Source: Fluviicola sp. (GTDB lineage Bacteria; Bacteroidota; Bacteroidia; Flavobacteriales_D; Crocinitomicaceae). From it: a stretch of DNA of 64,000 nt. How positions within the stretch are numbered: the first letter of the stretch is position 1; the number at the start of each line of letters is the position of its first letter. The position numbers and the translations under genes are program-made. The notes beneath the pieces were generated by a model. It was not told the origin of the DNA. It ran no database searches and saw only the letters and a program-made list of their open reading frames with translations. Of this stretch, positions 2,921-8,488 are shown piece by piece. Location of the stretch: positions 248,001 through 312,000 of the forward strand of contig NZ_JBCNJT010000004.1 in NCBI RefSeq assembly GCF_039596395.1. Direction: 5' to 3'.

Positions 2921-3790
2921 ATGGCAGGATACAAAATCCGGGACTTGGAAATTCTAACGGGAATTAAAGCACATACGATCCGGATGTGGGAAAAAAGATA
3001 TGGCCTGCTCACTCCTCAAAGAACCACCACCCATATACGGACTTATTCTGATGACGAACTGCTTTTACTCTTAAACATCTCTTTATTAAACAAAAAAGGA
3101 ATCAAGATCTCCAGGATTGCAGAAATGAGCACCCGCCAGATTTTTGACACCTCCAGATCGATACACGACTCAAGGGATGTTGATACGGCGATCGAAGAAT
3201 TCATTGTTTCCGTTTTGCAGCTGGACGAACACCTGTTCAATAAAACATTCCGCGAGCTGAACCAAAAAGCACCTTTATCCGATATTTTTTCAGAACACAT
3301 TATCCCATTTCTCAATCGGATCGGTATCATGTGGATGGTAGGAACTATTAATCCGGCACAGGAACATTTCATTTCCAACCTGATCCGGCAAAAAATCATA
3401 GCTGCCATCGATCAATTACCCATTCCCGATCCGAACGCAGAAAAAATCATTATTTACCTGCCGGAACACGAATGGCACGAAATCAGCCTGCTGGTTTATC
3501 ATTATCACCTCCGCTCAAAAGGCATCAACAGCATTTATCTCGGCCAGGCTTTACCCTATGATGCTTTGATTAAAACGGTGGAAACATTAAAACCCAAAGG
3601 AATTGCATCCAGCTGGCTTACAGCAATCGAACCTCAAAAAATACTGGATTATTTCATACAACTCGAAAGAGATCTCGGTCATTTAAAGATCATTGCCGGT
3701 GGTTATCAGATCGATCAGCTGGGATCCGCTCTTTCAAAAAATATCCGCCGGATTCACACACTTTCTGATTTAGAGCAGCTTATCCGGTAA
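2921..3790 (+). CDS. CarH/LitR-type B12-dependent light-sensing regulator
   Basis: 289 residues. A MerR-type winged helix is at about 3-70 (IRDLEILTGIKAHTIRMWEKRYGLL). A four-helix cobalamin-cap domain covers about 85-165 and a Rossmann B12-binding domain about 174-289. Residues W138, E148 and H149 have the spacing of Trp131, Glu141 and His142 that cover adenosylcobalamin in Thermus CarH. H186 in EWHEIS sits where the lower cobalt ligand His of the E-x-H-x-x-G loop lies; the usual Gly is Ser189. In the family the AdoCbl-bound tetramer represses carotenoid genes in the dark and light breaks it. The gene is followed by crtI and crtB in the same direction. The start has an AAGGGG sequence 9 bases upstream. 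Light sensing here is inferred from residues and context. Confidence 0.85.
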   Translation: MAGYKIRDLEILTGIKAHTIRMWEKRYGLLTPQRTTTHIRTYSDDELLLLLNISLLNKKGIKISRIAEMSTRQIFDTSRSIHDSRDVDTAIEEFIVSVLQLDEHLFNKTFRELNQKAPLSDIFSEHIIPFLNRIGIMWMVGTINPAQEHFISNLIRQKIIAAIDQLPIPDPNAEKIIIYLPEHEWHEISLLVYHYHLRSKGINSIYLGQALPYDALIKTVETLKPKGIASSWLTAIEPQKILDYFIQLERDLGHLKIIAGGYQIDQLGSALSKNIRRIHTLSDLEQLIR

Positions 3791-3821: not shown

Positions 3822-3859
3822 TTTTTGTTTAATCTTTTTATATATTTGTTAAACAAAAA
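3822..3859 (+). promoter_or_regulatory. Inverted repeat around the crtI -7 box; likely CarH operator
   Basis: TTTTTGTTTAA (3822-3832) and its exact complement TTAAACAAAAA (3849-3859) flank a 16-base spacer that ends in TATATTTG (3841-3848), a TAnnTTTG -7 element. The right arm also belongs to a 13-base odd palindrome TTTGTTAAACAAA (3845-3857). The nearest -33-like TTTG is only 13 bases upstream of the -7 box, shorter than usual. A repressor bound here would cover the promoter of crtI-crtB. Confidence 0.6.
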
Positions 3860-3913
3860 TGATTTTAGCCGATTGAGTCAATTTAAATTGTACATTCATT
3901 CCGGATAAGATTT

Positions 3914-5416
3914 ATGTCACATTTAAACGGCTCAATGTCAGGAAAAAAAATAGCTATTATCGGTTCAGGTATTTCCAGTTTATCCTGTGCGTCATTCCTG
4001 GCAAAGGAAGGACACGAAGTGCTTATCCTGGAACAGAACGACAGCATTGGCGGAAGAGCACGTCAGTTTAAAACGGATAACGGATTTACGTTCGACATGG
4101 GACCAAGCTGGTACTGGATGCCGGATATTTTCGAGAATTTCTACCGGCAATTCGGCTACACTACGTCAGACTTTTATGAACTCGTCCGGTTAAATCCGTC
4201 CTACCAGGTTATCTGGGGCAACAATGACATTGATCCCATTCCTGCTTCGATTCCTGAAATGGAAGAATACTTTGAGAAACTGGAACTGGGAAGCAGTATT
4301 AAACTGAGACAATTCCTGGCAGATGCCGAAAAGAAATACAACATCGGGATGAAGGATTTGGTGTACAAACCAAGTCTGAAACTGACCGAATTTGCCGATA
4401 CCCGTGTTTTGACCGGTTTATTCAAAATGCAGCTCTTCACATCCTTTGCTTCGTTCATCCGGAAATATTTCACGCATCCGAAAATCATTTCACTACTTGA
4501 ATTCCCGATCCTATTCCTGGGAGCAACCCCAAAAGATACGCCGGCCCTTTATTCATTAATGAATTACGCGGATATTCAACTGGGAACCTGGTACCCGATG
4601 GGTGGAATGTTCGAATTTGTGAAAGCATTCGAAAAAATTGCGCTGGAACAAGGAGTCACTTTTTCATTGAACACGCGCGTTCTCGGATTTAATACTTCAA
4701 ACGGGGAAATCCGGTCTGTTAATACTTCCCGGGGAGAAATTGCCTGTGATTATGTGATCTCCGGAGCGGATTATCAACACACCGAACAACTCCTGAAAAA
4801 TAAAGCCAATTACACGGACAGTTACTGGGAAAAGCGAATAATGGCTCCCTCCTGCCTCCTGTTCTACATCGGTTTGGATTGTAAAGTTCCGAATCTGCTT
4901 CACCACAACCTGTTTTTCGATGAGGATTTTGACGCACACGCTTCTGACATCTATAAAAATCCGAAGTGGCCGCGCAAACCGCTTTTCTATGCGAGTTGTC
5001 CTTCGAAAACAGATCCTTCCGTTGCGCCGGAAAACGGTGAAAACCTGTTTTTATTAATACCGATCGCACCAAATCTTACCGATTCGGAAAAACAACGCGA
5101 AGATTATTTCCAGATCCTGCGAAATCGATTAATCGAAAAAATAGGGTTTGATCTCAATCCACACATTGTTTACAAGCGTAGTTATTGCATCTCCGATTTT
5201 GTAACGGATTACAACGCCTTTAAAGGAAATGCTTATGGATTGGCAAATACATTGAAACAAACTGCTTTATTGAAACCCCGTATCAAGAACAAGCATTTAT
5301 CAAACCTGTTTTATACAGGGCAATTGACGGTTCCGGGACCTGGAGTTCCGCCATCTATCGTTTCGGGAGAAGTGGTCGCAAAACATGTGATCAAACAAAT
5401 TGAAAAACAATATTAA
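3914..5416 (+). CDS. crtI: Phytoene desaturase (carotenoid)
   Basis: 500-residue FAD amine-oxidase-fold enzyme that desaturates phytoene towards lycopene (or a related product) at the membrane. The N-terminal dinucleotide fold shows GSGISS at 17-22, the ribose-binding Glu at 40 and GGRA at 46-49. The C-terminal FAD motif is YTGQLTVPGPGVPPSIVSGE near 466-485, which carries the family's typical PGPGVP. It is 9 bases ahead of crtB and probably co-transcribed. No lycopene cyclase or hydroxylase gene is in the window, so the end product cannot be read from here. A second in-frame ATG 7 codons downstream is a possible alternative start. Confidence 0.93.
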   Translation: MSHLNGSMSGKKIAIIGSGISSLSCASFLAKEGHEVLILEQNDSIGGRARQFKTDNGFTFDMGPSWYWMPDIFENFYRQFGYTTSDFYELVRLNPSYQVIWGNNDIDPIPASIPEMEEYFEKLELGSSIKLRQFLADAEKKYNIGMKDLVYKPSLKLTEFADTRVLTGLFKMQLFTSFASFIRKYFTHPKIISLLEFPILFLGATPKDTPALYSLMNYADIQLGTWYPMGGMFEFVKAFEKIALEQGVTFSLNTRVLGFNTSNGEIRSVNTSRGEIACDYVISGADYQHTEQLLKNKANYTDSYWEKRIMAPSCLLFYIGLDCKVPNLLHHNLFFDEDFDAHASDIYKNPKWPRKPLFYASCPSKTDPSVAPENGENLFLLIPIAPNLTDSEKQREDYFQILRNRLIEKIGFDLNPHIVYKRSYCISDFVTDYNAFKGNAYGLANTLKQTALLKPRIKNKHLSNLFYTGQLTVPGPGVPPSIVSGEVVAKHVIKQIEKQY

Positions 5417-5425
5417 ACCACTGCT

Positions 5426-6262
5426 ATGAAACAATTATTCGACACACTTTCACTGGACATGAGCGCCATGACAACCAAAAGGTACAGTACGTCCTTTTCC
5501 CTGGGCATCCGATTTCTGAGCAGAGACCTGCAGGCACCTATCCATGCCATTTACGGATTTGTGCGTTTCGCAGATGAAATCGTAGACAGTTTTCACGAGT
5601 ATGAAAAGAAAGATTTGCTGAAGGAATTCAGAGCCGAAACTTACAAAGCGATTGAACGCGGCATTTCCCTGAACCCGATCCTGAACAGCTTTCAATGGGT
5701 GGTGAATACCTATAAAATTGACGAGGAATTGATTGAGATATTTTTGGATTCGATGGAAATGGACCTGGAAACCTCCCAATACGAGCGCACGGTATACGAG
5801 CGGTACATCTTAGGTTCTGCAGAAGTGGTAGGCTTGATGTGCCTCAAGGTTTTTGTAAGGGGAAGCCAGCTTGACTACGAAGAATTGCAGGAACCGGCCA
5901 TGAAATTGGGTGCTGCTTTCCAGAAGATCAATTTCCTGCGCGATCTGAATGCCGATTATTACCAGTTGGGCCGCTCATATTTCCCGGAAATGAATTTTGA
6001 TCATTTCGACCATGCCATGAAGCAGAAAATCGAAGAGGAAATCGAAATGGATTTCAAAGCAGGATATGAGGGCATTAAGAAATTGCCTAAAGACGCACGC
6101 TTTGGAGTTTATATGGCTTATCGTTACTATGTCAAGTTATTCCACAAGATCCGGCAAACAGATCCCCATATTATTTTGGGCGAACGCATCCGGATTCCCG
6201 ACAATAAAAAGTACCGTTTGCTATTTACTTCTTATCTTCGTCATAACCTGAATTTATTGTAG
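5426..6262 (+). CDS. crtB: Phytoene synthase
   Basis: 278 residues; condenses two geranylgeranyl diphosphates to phytoene. Both aspartate-rich metal/diphosphate motifs are present: D50-EIV-D54 and D173-LNA-D177, the second inside NFLRDLNADYYQLGRSYFP. The length is normal for bacterial CrtB. It starts 9 bases after the crtI stop, so both genes are likely one transcript driven from the promoter at 3841-3848. Confidence 0.93.
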   Translation: MKQLFDTLSLDMSAMTTKRYSTSFSLGIRFLSRDLQAPIHAIYGFVRFADEIVDSFHEYEKKDLLKEFRAETYKAIERGISLNPILNSFQWVVNTYKIDEELIEIFLDSMEMDLETSQYERTVYERYILGSAEVVGLMCLKVFVRGSQLDYEELQEPAMKLGAAFQKINFLRDLNADYYQLGRSYFPEMNFDHFDHAMKQKIEEEIEMDFKAGYEGIKKLPKDARFGVYMAYRYYVKLFHKIRQTDPHIILGERIRIPDNKKYRLLFTSYLRHNLNLL

Positions 6263-6340
6263 TTGTCAGAAAGAATAGCAAACGACACGGCAAGATTCAG
6301 GTAATTCAGTACAAACAAATAATAGAAGAAATACTTTCCC

Positions 6341-6745
6341 ATGAAGATCTTTCGCGTCGAACAATTCAATGCTGCACATCGCTTATTCAATCCGAACTGG
6401 GACGATGAAACCAATAACCGTGTTTTCGGGAAATGCAACAACCCCAATTTTCACGGACACAATTACAAACTGGAAGTGGAATTGGACGGTCCGATCAATC
6501 CCGACACCGGTTATGTAATGGACATGAAACAGCTTTCCGACATTATGAAGCTGGAAATCCTGGAGCGTTTCGACCACCGGAACCTGAACCTGGATTGTCC
6601 GGAATTCAAAGATTTGATCCCTTCTGCGGAAAACATCGCATTCGTTTGCTGGAATATTTTACGCGACAAACTTCCGGCAGGATTGAAATTAAAAGTGCGC
6701 CTGTGGGAAACTCCCCGCAATGGAGTCGAATACGATGGAAACTAA
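6341..6745 (+). CDS. 6-pyruvoyl-tetrahydropterin synthase family protein (copy 1)
   Basis: 134 residues of the QueD/PTPS fold, which acts on dihydroneopterin triphosphate. Zinc ligands H13, H38 and H40 and catalytic C32 are visible. The spacing C32-x5-H-G-H (KCNNPNFHGHNYK) is that of animal PTPS, not the C-x3-HGH of QueD; DHRNLNLD and the later SAENIA also match PTPS. The likely product is therefore 6-pyruvoyl-tetrahydropterin, with queuosine precursor formation as the alternative. It lies between crtB and a photolyase gene. A paralogue sits at 55561 next to folE. Pterins serve as photolyase antenna or redox cofactors; any such link here is inference. Confidence 0.85.
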   Translation: MKIFRVEQFNAAHRLFNPNWDDETNNRVFGKCNNPNFHGHNYKLEVELDGPINPDTGYVMDMKQLSDIMKLEILERFDHRNLNLDCPEFKDLIPSAENIAFVCWNILRDKLPAGLKLKVRLWETPRNGVEYDGN

Positions 6746-7183: not shown

Positions 7184-8488
7184 ATGGAAAAACTGACCTT
7201 CTTCTGGCATCGGAGAGATCTGAGAATCCACGACAATGCCGGACTTTTCAAAGCATTAAAACAAGGAGAAAATGTTCAGCCTATTTTCATTTTTGATACC
7301 CAAATACTAAGCAAACTTCCGAAAAATGACCAGCGTGTTCTGTTTATTCATCAGCAGATTGAAACATTACAGGCAGCTTATCAAAAACTCGGGGCTTCCT
7401 TGTGGGTTTTCCGGGGAAATCCAACGCAATTAATTCCAGAACTGGTCAAAGAATATTCCGTTCAAAAAGTATTTTGCAACAGGGATTACGAACCCGATGC
7501 CATTAAACGCGACAAATCCGTTCACGAAGCGCTTCAAAAACTGGATTGTACCTTTTCAGGCTCGAAAGACCAGGTGATTTTTGAAAAAGATGAGGTGGTG
7601 AAGCCCGACGGAAATCCCTATCACGTTTTTACTCCCTACATGAAACGATGGAAGGAAAAACTGAACGATTTCTACCTGAGTACTTACCCGGTTGAAAAAT
7701 ATACTTCCAACCTGAACAAGGGAAAGAAATTTGCTCTTCCCAGCCTGGAAGAACTAGGGTTCAGTGAAATTCAAACACAGGAATTTCCTTCACTCACCAT
7801 TCCAACCAAAATCATCCGGAATTACCACGAAACCCGTGATATTCCTTCCATTGAGGGAACGTCGCGTCTAAGTCTGCACCTGCGTTTCGGGACGATCTCC
7901 ATTCGCGAATTGGCCAGGTACGCAAAAGCAACCAACGAAAAATACTTCAACGAATTGATCTGGCGGGATTTTTACCAGATGATCCTGTATTGGTATCCCA
8001 AAAGTATGGACCATGCTTTCAAATCCGAATACGACCGCATTGAATGGGAATTTGACGAAAAACAATTCCGGGCCTGGTGCGAAGGTAAAACCGGTTATCC
8101 GCTGGTTGATGCCGGAATGCGCGAACTGAATGAAACAGGTCATATGCACAACCGTATCCGGATGGTGGTGGCGAGTTTCCTTTGCAAGCATCTGATGCAT
8201 GACTGGCGATTGGGGGAACGCTATTTTGCGGAGAAATTACTGGATTTCGAATTAGCGAGCAATGTCGGTGGCTGGCAATGGGCCGCAGGTTCGGGAGTTG
8301 ATGCAGCTCCCTATTTCCGCATTTTCAACCCGACCAGTCAGCAGGAAAAATTCGATCCGAAGTTTGAATACATCAAAAAGTGGGTGCCGGAATTCGGAAC
8401 TGCTGATTACCCGGAACCAATTGTGGAACACAAATGGGCTCGCGAACGGGTATTAGAACGGTATAAAAAAGCGCTGAAAGCAAAATAA
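7184..8488 (+). CDS. phrB: Deoxyribodipyrimidine photolyase, class I
   Basis: 434 residues; light-driven FAD enzyme that splits cyclobutane pyrimidine dimers. The N-terminal antenna Rossmann domain (FFWHRRDLRIHDNAGL) is followed by the helical FAD domain with ELIWRDFYQMILYW, TGYPLVDAGMREL, HMHNRIRM, DWRLGERYFAEKLLDFE and the hallmark NVGGWQWAAGSGVDAAPYFRIFNP-type block (about 360-385). The tryptophans of the electron-transfer chain are present. The signature fits CPD photolyase better than cry-DASH. It lies 1.4 kb after crtB, in the same direction as the CarH-type regulator, consistent with a light-response neighbourhood; a hairpin separates it from the preceding gene. Confidence 0.9.
   Translation: MEKLTFFWHRRDLRIHDNAGLFKALKQGENVQPIFIFDTQILSKLPKNDQRVLFIHQQIETLQAAYQKLGASLWVFRGNPTQLIPELVKEYSVQKVFCNRDYEPDAIKRDKSVHEALQKLDCTFSGSKDQVIFEKDEVVKPDGNPYHVFTPYMKRWKEKLNDFYLSTYPVEKYTSNLNKGKKFALPSLEELGFSEIQTQEFPSLTIPTKIIRNYHETRDIPSIEGTSRLSLHLRFGTISIRELARYAKATNEKYFNELIWRDFYQMILYWYPKSMDHAFKSEYDRIEWEFDEKQFRAWCEGKTGYPLVDAGMRELNETGHMHNRIRMVVASFLCKHLMHDWRLGERYFAEKLLDFELASNVGGWQWAAGSGVDAAPYFRIFNPTSQQEKFDPKFEYIKKWVPEFGTADYPEPIVEHKWARERVLERYKKALKAK

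Follow-up and report, generated by a model that had tools for sequence, protein, structure and literature searches.

Why should a perfect inverted repeat lie across the promoter of a carotenoid gene in a Fluviicola genome, and which protein, if any, would read it there? In the 64,000-nucleotide stretch of DNA analysed here (the window, to which all positions refer), the repeat has a MerR/B12-binding gene (2921-3790) on one side and crtI on the other, with crtB, a PTPS homologue and a photolyase gene further on:

2921-3790, plus strand: CarH-like MerR-family regulator, the proposed reader of the operator (Pfam, similarity to TtCarH, PDB fold ranks, ligand residues)
3822-3859, no strand assigned: full inverted repeat, arms at 3822-3832 and 3849-3859
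3826-3855, no strand assigned: putative operator core TGTTTAA-N16-TTAAACA (fixed gap in relatives and co-occurrence with the regulator)
3841-3848, plus strand: predicted -7 box TATATTTG, primary-sigma type (sequence; TAnnTTTG consensus of Flavobacterium psychrophilum)
3853, plus strand: predicted transcription start of crtI (from the position of the -7 box)
3935-5416, plus strand: crtI, phytoene desaturase (NCBIfam CrtID, 699 bits against a cut-off of 640)
5426-6262, plus strand: crtB-like phytoene synthase, next after crtI (Pfam SQS_PSY)
6341-6745, plus strand: 6-pyruvoyl tetrahydropterin synthase (PTPS) homologue (Pfam PTPS; order kept in relatives)
7184-8488, plus strand: photolyase/cryptochrome homologue (Pfam; order kept in relatives)

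The reading that we favour, with a probability of roughly three in four, is that the repeat is the dark-state repressor operator of the CarH-like regulator encoded at 2921-3790, and that it marks a B12-based light regulon in related Bacteroidota. For crtI, the start at 3935 was preferred over 3914, its ATG being common to relatives. The PTPS homologue is possibly co-transcribed with the crt genes and the photolyase/cryptochrome homologue is a possible member of the same gene group. In two relatives an idi-like gene separates crtB and PTPS; the corresponding gap in the window (6262-6341) is 78 bp. Divergent from the regulator lies a lipoprotein-like gene (2173-2775) with no Pfam match, kept in the genus's other regulator-bearing genomes at 53-96% identity.

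The two 11-nt arms, TTTTTGTTTAA (3822-3832) and TTAAACAAAAA (3849-3859), are 100% complementary across a spacing of 16 nt and TATATTTG abuts the right arm, so that the perfect repeat with a -7 box ending its spacer, as put forward in the preliminary description, is present as claimed. The nested 13-base palindrome noted in the same place is likewise present, as TTTGTTAAACAAA (3845-3857), of odd length around one central base. As a separate element it did not hold up, the bases before the arm being variable at 87 oriented sites (defined below); considered as a second site it was rejected, for it occurs at one place in the genome and is explained by the -7 box, whose TTTG joins directly onto the right arm. 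TTTGTTWAACAAA occurs at a single place in the whole 4.64-Mb genome. Among 5000 first-order Markov surrogates made for the 144-bp region, 16 contained a perfect 11-bp repeat with a spacer of 3-30. Across the window, perfect 11-bp repeats with a spacer of 3-40 are found at 13 places, 3822-3859 included (34 overlapping pairs), and it is therefore conservation, rather than rarity, that carries the argument. Conservation upstream of crtI in close relatives was also the comparison on which the repeat had been staked, and six genomes of the genus bear it out: the block TTTTGTTTAATCTTTTTnTATATTTGTTAAACA is near-invariant among them, within an intergenic region that has otherwise diverged. As the outermost arm bases differ among those six, the conserved core consists of 7-bp arms, fewer than all 11. 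The spacer carries a weak symmetric TTT...AAA, and a tetramer seated on inner degenerate half-sites would be speculation.

In Flavobacterium psychrophilum the TAnnTTTG box stands at -12 to -5 (PMC9723704), which would place the crtI start near 3853, with the repeat spanning about -31 to +7 and some 80 nt of leader ahead of the gene. How such boxes lie relative to the operator was counted at 87 distinct sites, each given its orientation by a gene that starts no more than 150 bp away, the window's 30-mer being represented by an identical one. An exact TAnnTTTG read towards the gene abuts the right arm at 11 of the 87 sites, stands 23 bp downstream at 10, overlaps the left arm at 14 and ends 11 bp short of the right arm at 5; read away from the gene, the corresponding counts are 2, 1, 6 and 0. 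The TTG of a -33 element usually stands at a spacing of about 17-23 bp. None was found at that spacing before crtI, the nearest TTTG (3824-3827) standing 13 bp from the box and belonging to the left operator arm. A MerR-type promoter with altered -33 geometry, as had been proposed, is thus not borne out, for the TTTG in question is operator sequence and -7 boxes are variously placed relative to the operator elsewhere. Since operator and promoter meet in several registers, occlusion fits better than distortion of the promoter spacer. A second conserved patch, roughly RATTnnAAdTGTAnATTCATT, lies in the crtI leader at about 3880-3901 in the six genomes of the genus in which an ECF sigma gene is missing from this locus.

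The 16-bp gap is itself a conserved property. At 29 loci picked by the regulator protein alone (best by E-value, motif ignored, own genome excluded), pairs of TGTTTAA and TTAAACA stand exactly 16 apart in 26 sites at 21 of the loci; any other gap between 0 and 80 occurs at most twice, and direct pairs of the same 7-mer show no comparable peak (maximum 5, at gap 57). Among 80 named regulator loci, the best 80 of at least 588, the exact pair is found at gap 16 in 30 loci, at gap 17 in 5 and at each remaining gap between 4 and 30 in no more than one locus, and the symmetric gap-16 pair recurs across many families. No gap-16 site at 13/14 or better was found in 34 of these 80 loci, a set that includes ten of the twelve closest; those ten also have no crt or ECF gene beside the regulator within the 3.5 kb examined.

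Site and regulator travel together across genomes. The exact core is present in 138 of the 199 genomes of the order, and a reversed-pattern control in 9 (a control count made by eye). Taking a match at E up to 1e-20 as presence, the regulator was found in 164 of the 199; the exact site occurs in 135 of these 164 versus 3 of the 35 genomes without it (Fisher p=8e-17, a value that overstates the evidence, the genomes being kin). The exact site is absent from 29 of the 164 regulator-bearing genomes, and the three genomes with a site and no regulator match are 83, 62 and 83% complete. Within the window's genus the correspondence is complete (exact core in 10/10 genomes with the regulator and 0/4 without), and across the phylum the core was counted by eye in 44 of the class's 70 genomes and in 6 of the 223 that belong to other classes, with a reversed control of 9 in each, also by eye. 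In three genomes the regulator's start codon itself follows a site at a distance of 1-3 bp.

The protein encoded at 2921-3790 matches Pfam MerR_1 at 49.6 bits (cut-off 21.6) and B12-binding_2 above its cut-off, while its match to B12-binding, at 20.5 bits, falls below the cut-off of 32.1. Its sequence matches TtCarH at 3e-20, and a structure model (pLDDT 88, pTM 0.71) retrieves TtCarH chains as PDB ranks 1-12, followed by B12-domain structures, with a query TM of 0.48-0.61 over those twelve ranks and an rmsd that is large over two domains. By domain content and fold it thus has the four-helix plus Rossmann B12-binding module known from CarH. Against the NCBIfam CarH equivalog NF052513 it scores 95.1 bits, far under the cut-off of 400, and judged by sequence it is a distant relative outside that model. 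The key cobalamin-binding residues of CarH are W131, E141, H142 and H177 (PMC11796333). Thirty regulator sequences, the window's included, were compared residue by residue: the recognition motif RxWE(K/Q)RY is present in all 30, and in the Wx9EH motif (W138, E148 and H149 in the window protein) the W is kept in 29 and the E and H in 30. Of the cobalamin motif D/ExHx2G/P...SxT/V...GG, the D/E and the lower-ligand His are present in all 30, its Gly position after the His is Ser in the window protein (Ser in 16 of the 30, Gly in 14), and the GG is found in the window protein and in 19 of the 30. Many CarH proteins, though not all, have a His after the Trp (TtCarH His132); at this position the window protein has Met, and only 1 of the 30 has His. 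The genome also encodes a cob(I)alamin adenosyltransferase (PF01923), which bears indirectly on the use of adenosylcobalamin. The regulator is classed as CarH-like with its key cobalamin-binding residues kept, and it is a candidate for cofactor binding and a response to light.

Gene order varies around this constant pair. Relatives commonly show the regulator, one or two sites, an ECF sigma gene, crtI and crtB, often with PTPS and photolyase genes; in six genomes of the genus crtI comes directly after the regulator gene and the ECF gene is missing, and in two further genomes crtI likewise comes directly after a site. Four genomes have the site before ECF-crtI and the regulator on a different contig. 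Among the 80 named loci, an ECF gene is present in 43 (26 with an exact site) and absent from 37 (4 with one). No close homologue of this sigma factor was found in the window's genome, the best match reaching 33% identity; ECF identity is usually 57-63% in genomes of the genus and family with the '62-ish' ECF genes. The window's Fluviicola lineage has, from its gene content, lost the ECF sigma gene and kept the site, and its light circuit is most likely a shortened one. Tandem operators, 34 or 35 bp apart from start to start, precede the ECF sigma gene at seven loci, where cooperative binding is possible.

What the preliminary description had suggested, a conserved operator at crtI that overlaps the -7 box, is upheld, and the predicted reader at 2921 is most likely the protein that reads it; that assignment rests on the fixed gap, the co-occurrence, the adjoining sites, the TnnACA half-site and the kept recognition motif. 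In the dark, the cobalamin-loaded regulator would bind the repeat symmetrically and, covering about -31 to +7 and with it the -7 box and the start, would exclude RNA polymerase from crtI-crtB. Light would break the Co-C bond of the cofactor, dismantle the complex and free the promoter. With the ECF sigma intermediate gone from the window's lineage, the regulator would control crtI directly. What weighs against this reading are the regulator-bearing genomes and loci that lack a site, the rhodopsin regions below 12/14 (described below), the single exact site in the window's genome, sites elsewhere before TonB-like or unnamed genes, the low NCBIfam CarH score, the Ser in the His motif and the missing His132.

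Other readings must be set against this one. The regulator might read the site as an activator, in the manner described for LitR at litS in Streptomyces, its light form promoting transcription, and there is some encouragement for this in the many relatives where the target, an ECF sigma gene, neighbours the regulator, as in LitR-LitS (PMC12705666), and in the want of a proper -33 element at crtI. An operator over the -7 box and predicted start, or elsewhere in other promoters, nevertheless suits a blocker, and in three other groups CarH represses in the dark (PMC9304148); we consider activation unlikely. Rather less likely still is that the site is read as direct repeats, its inverted symmetry being incidental or the product of two overlapping registers: degenerate direct repeats are conceivable here, and an apparent palindrome in Myxococcus is now thought to be read in that manner (PMC9304148), but the peak of inverted pairs at gap 16 (26 sites, against a direct maximum of 5 at gap 57) and the recurrence of the symmetric pair over many families speak against it.

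A different regulator that travels with gene 2921, such as the ECF sigma or an unnoticed repressor, could also be the reader, for co-occurrence cannot separate the regulator from a companion and 29 of the 164 regulator-bearing genomes show no exact site. We give this a slightly lower chance again, given that the window's genome keeps the site without an ECF orthologue, that sites adjoin the regulator gene, in three genomes within 1-3 bp of it, and that the half-site fits CarH. Finally, the repeat folds as RNA at -7.4 kcal/mol (z -2.5), a value equalled or bettered by 4 of 200 shuffles, and might in principle weakly terminate transcription of the regulator gene or form a structure in the crtI leader. 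Its stem consists almost wholly of A-U pairs, its loop measures 14 bases and no T-run follows, the left arm would lie outside the crtI transcript if the start is the predicted 3853, and four genomes have the site before ECF-crtI with the regulator on another contig; the hairpin, a modest fold that misfits both the predicted start and the siting elsewhere, was rejected as very improbable.

The dark-state repressor operator that we prefer has clear precedents and clear departures from them. CarH of Thermus thermophilus and Bacillus megaterium likewise joins a MerR-type domain to a B12-binding module and has the W, E, H and lower-ligand His, and CarH operators share the TnnACA half-site (here in TAAACA arms) and a position over promoter elements (PMC9304148). 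Characterised CarH operators are tandem 11-bp direct repeats of the form nnnnTnnACAn (PMC9304148), three or four of them in T. thermophilus and B. megaterium, whereas here there are two inverted half-sites across a 16-bp gap, and the operator is, on its sequence, most likely an inverted fixed-gap design unlike those repeats. His132 of TtCarH, the upper ligand after light, is missing in 29 of the 30 sequences compared. CarA/CarH of Myxococcus and Cystobacter similarly repress a crt promoter in the dark, and some Myxococcus operators contain inverted repeats (PMC9304148); these, unlike the present site, are thought to be read as direct repeats, and the fixed N16 pair is absent. The LitR-LitS system of Streptomyces also places a B12-based MerR-type regulator beside an ECF sigma that drives crt (PMC12705666), but there LitR is described as a positive regulator of litS, and the window's lineage has no such sigma. 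Within the Bacteroidota, crt genes of Chryseobacterium lacus are up in light (PMC7064467); that paper, in its available text, calls the mechanism unknown, offers a hypothetical protein as candidate and describes no operator (PMC7064467). MliR of Bizionia (PMC9478572) is a possible relative. Among the papers searched, few of them from subscription journals, none described the N16 site or a B12-type regulator of rhodopsin in its title or the opening of its abstract. If the reading is true, a CarH-like protein reads DNA in a second, symmetric geometry.

On a wider regulon, the window's genome and its relatives give different pictures. A scan of this genome with TTGTTTAA-N16-TTAAACAA at up to 3 mismatches returned 100 places versus 115 for the reversed control, so beyond the one exact site no regulon was detectable; within the window every other site has at least 2 mismatches, and gene 2921 has none ahead of it. 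The genome scan that had been proposed thus yields a single exact site here, and in relatives many sites, though not all, precede light-related genes. In the window's family, three genomes that share a genus have 7, 10 and 8 sites, of which 22 of 25 were read; here, as in other families, loci were chosen by the site itself. These sites precede a rhodopsin and blh-like gene (two sites), crtI, an SRPBCC-TspO-photolyase operon, an SDR operon ending in a photolyase-like gene, PTPS-folE, a TetR-ABC1 pair, SOUL and fasciclin genes, or lie between the regulator and meaB; for one of them, at locus L147, there is no gene start nearby. In other families the site stands before rhodopsin, fasciclin, PTPS-folE, SOUL, SDR, the regulator itself or ECF-crtI, though TonB-like and unnamed genes also follow some of the sites there, and others have no gene nearby. 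Pfam, run on nine proteins, supports the names SDR, TetR_C_23, rhodopsin, SOUL, sigma-70, MeaB, ECF-type sigma and fasciclin, while the SRPBCC-like protein matched no model. Sequence reading, or similarity to the proteins run, is the source of the names blh, TspO, folE, ABC1, SRPBCC and DUF2256 and of most labels given to fasciclins and photolyases.

Flavobacterial rhodopsin is light-induced, and rhodopsin genes can be gathered without regard to the site. By Pfam model there were 98 matches in 93 of the 199 genomes, of which 90 upstream regions were used and 8 matches excluded (seven fragments or contig-edge genes, plus that of G162). At gap 16, 51 of the 90 regions reach 12/14, 37 reach 13/14 and 14 are exact, leaving 39 below 12/14; other gaps from 8 to 24 give 1-7, 0-1 and 0 regions at the same three levels, save gap 17, which is also raised (11, 6 and 3) and, with its five exact pairs among the 80 named loci, is perhaps a minor operator form. 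AT-richness was discarded as the cause of these sites, other gaps being far rarer in the same 90 regions. Genomes without a regulator match contribute only 4 of the 90 regions (1 site at 13/14, 3 none), and those with the regulator contribute 36 with a site at 13/14 and 50 without.

Taken jointly, these observations tilt us, with less assurance than for the operator at crtI, towards a single inverted TAAACA N16 operator that drives a B12 light regulon in a large part of one Bacteroidota class. A two-fold symmetric CarH-like oligomer without a bis-His photoproduct would probably be the binder, turning on carotenoids, photolyases, pterin synthesis and rhodopsin pumps either directly or via an ECF sigma that some lineages, the window's included, would have dropped. 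A site shared by carotenoid, DNA-repair and rhodopsin genes could explain their being switched on by light in related bacteria. A 30-bp operator of fixed spacing makes the regulon predictable from sequence and testable by gel shift, and a possible use lies in green-light gene switches for a group in which standard promoters fail.

Several further neighbours of the site deserve mention. At two loci the regulator and a divergent meaB, which encodes a GTPase of a B12 enzyme, have the site between them, and this may connect it with cobalamin handling. Genes for secreted fasciclin-like proteins recur beside the site at twelve loci; Pfam was run on that of L106 only. One family of the order has sites before large secreted or TonB-like genes at five loci. 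In G051, one of the two further genomes with crtI directly after a site, a primary-type sigma-70 gene has a site (L109:4896-4925) 227 bp upstream of it, which may be chance.
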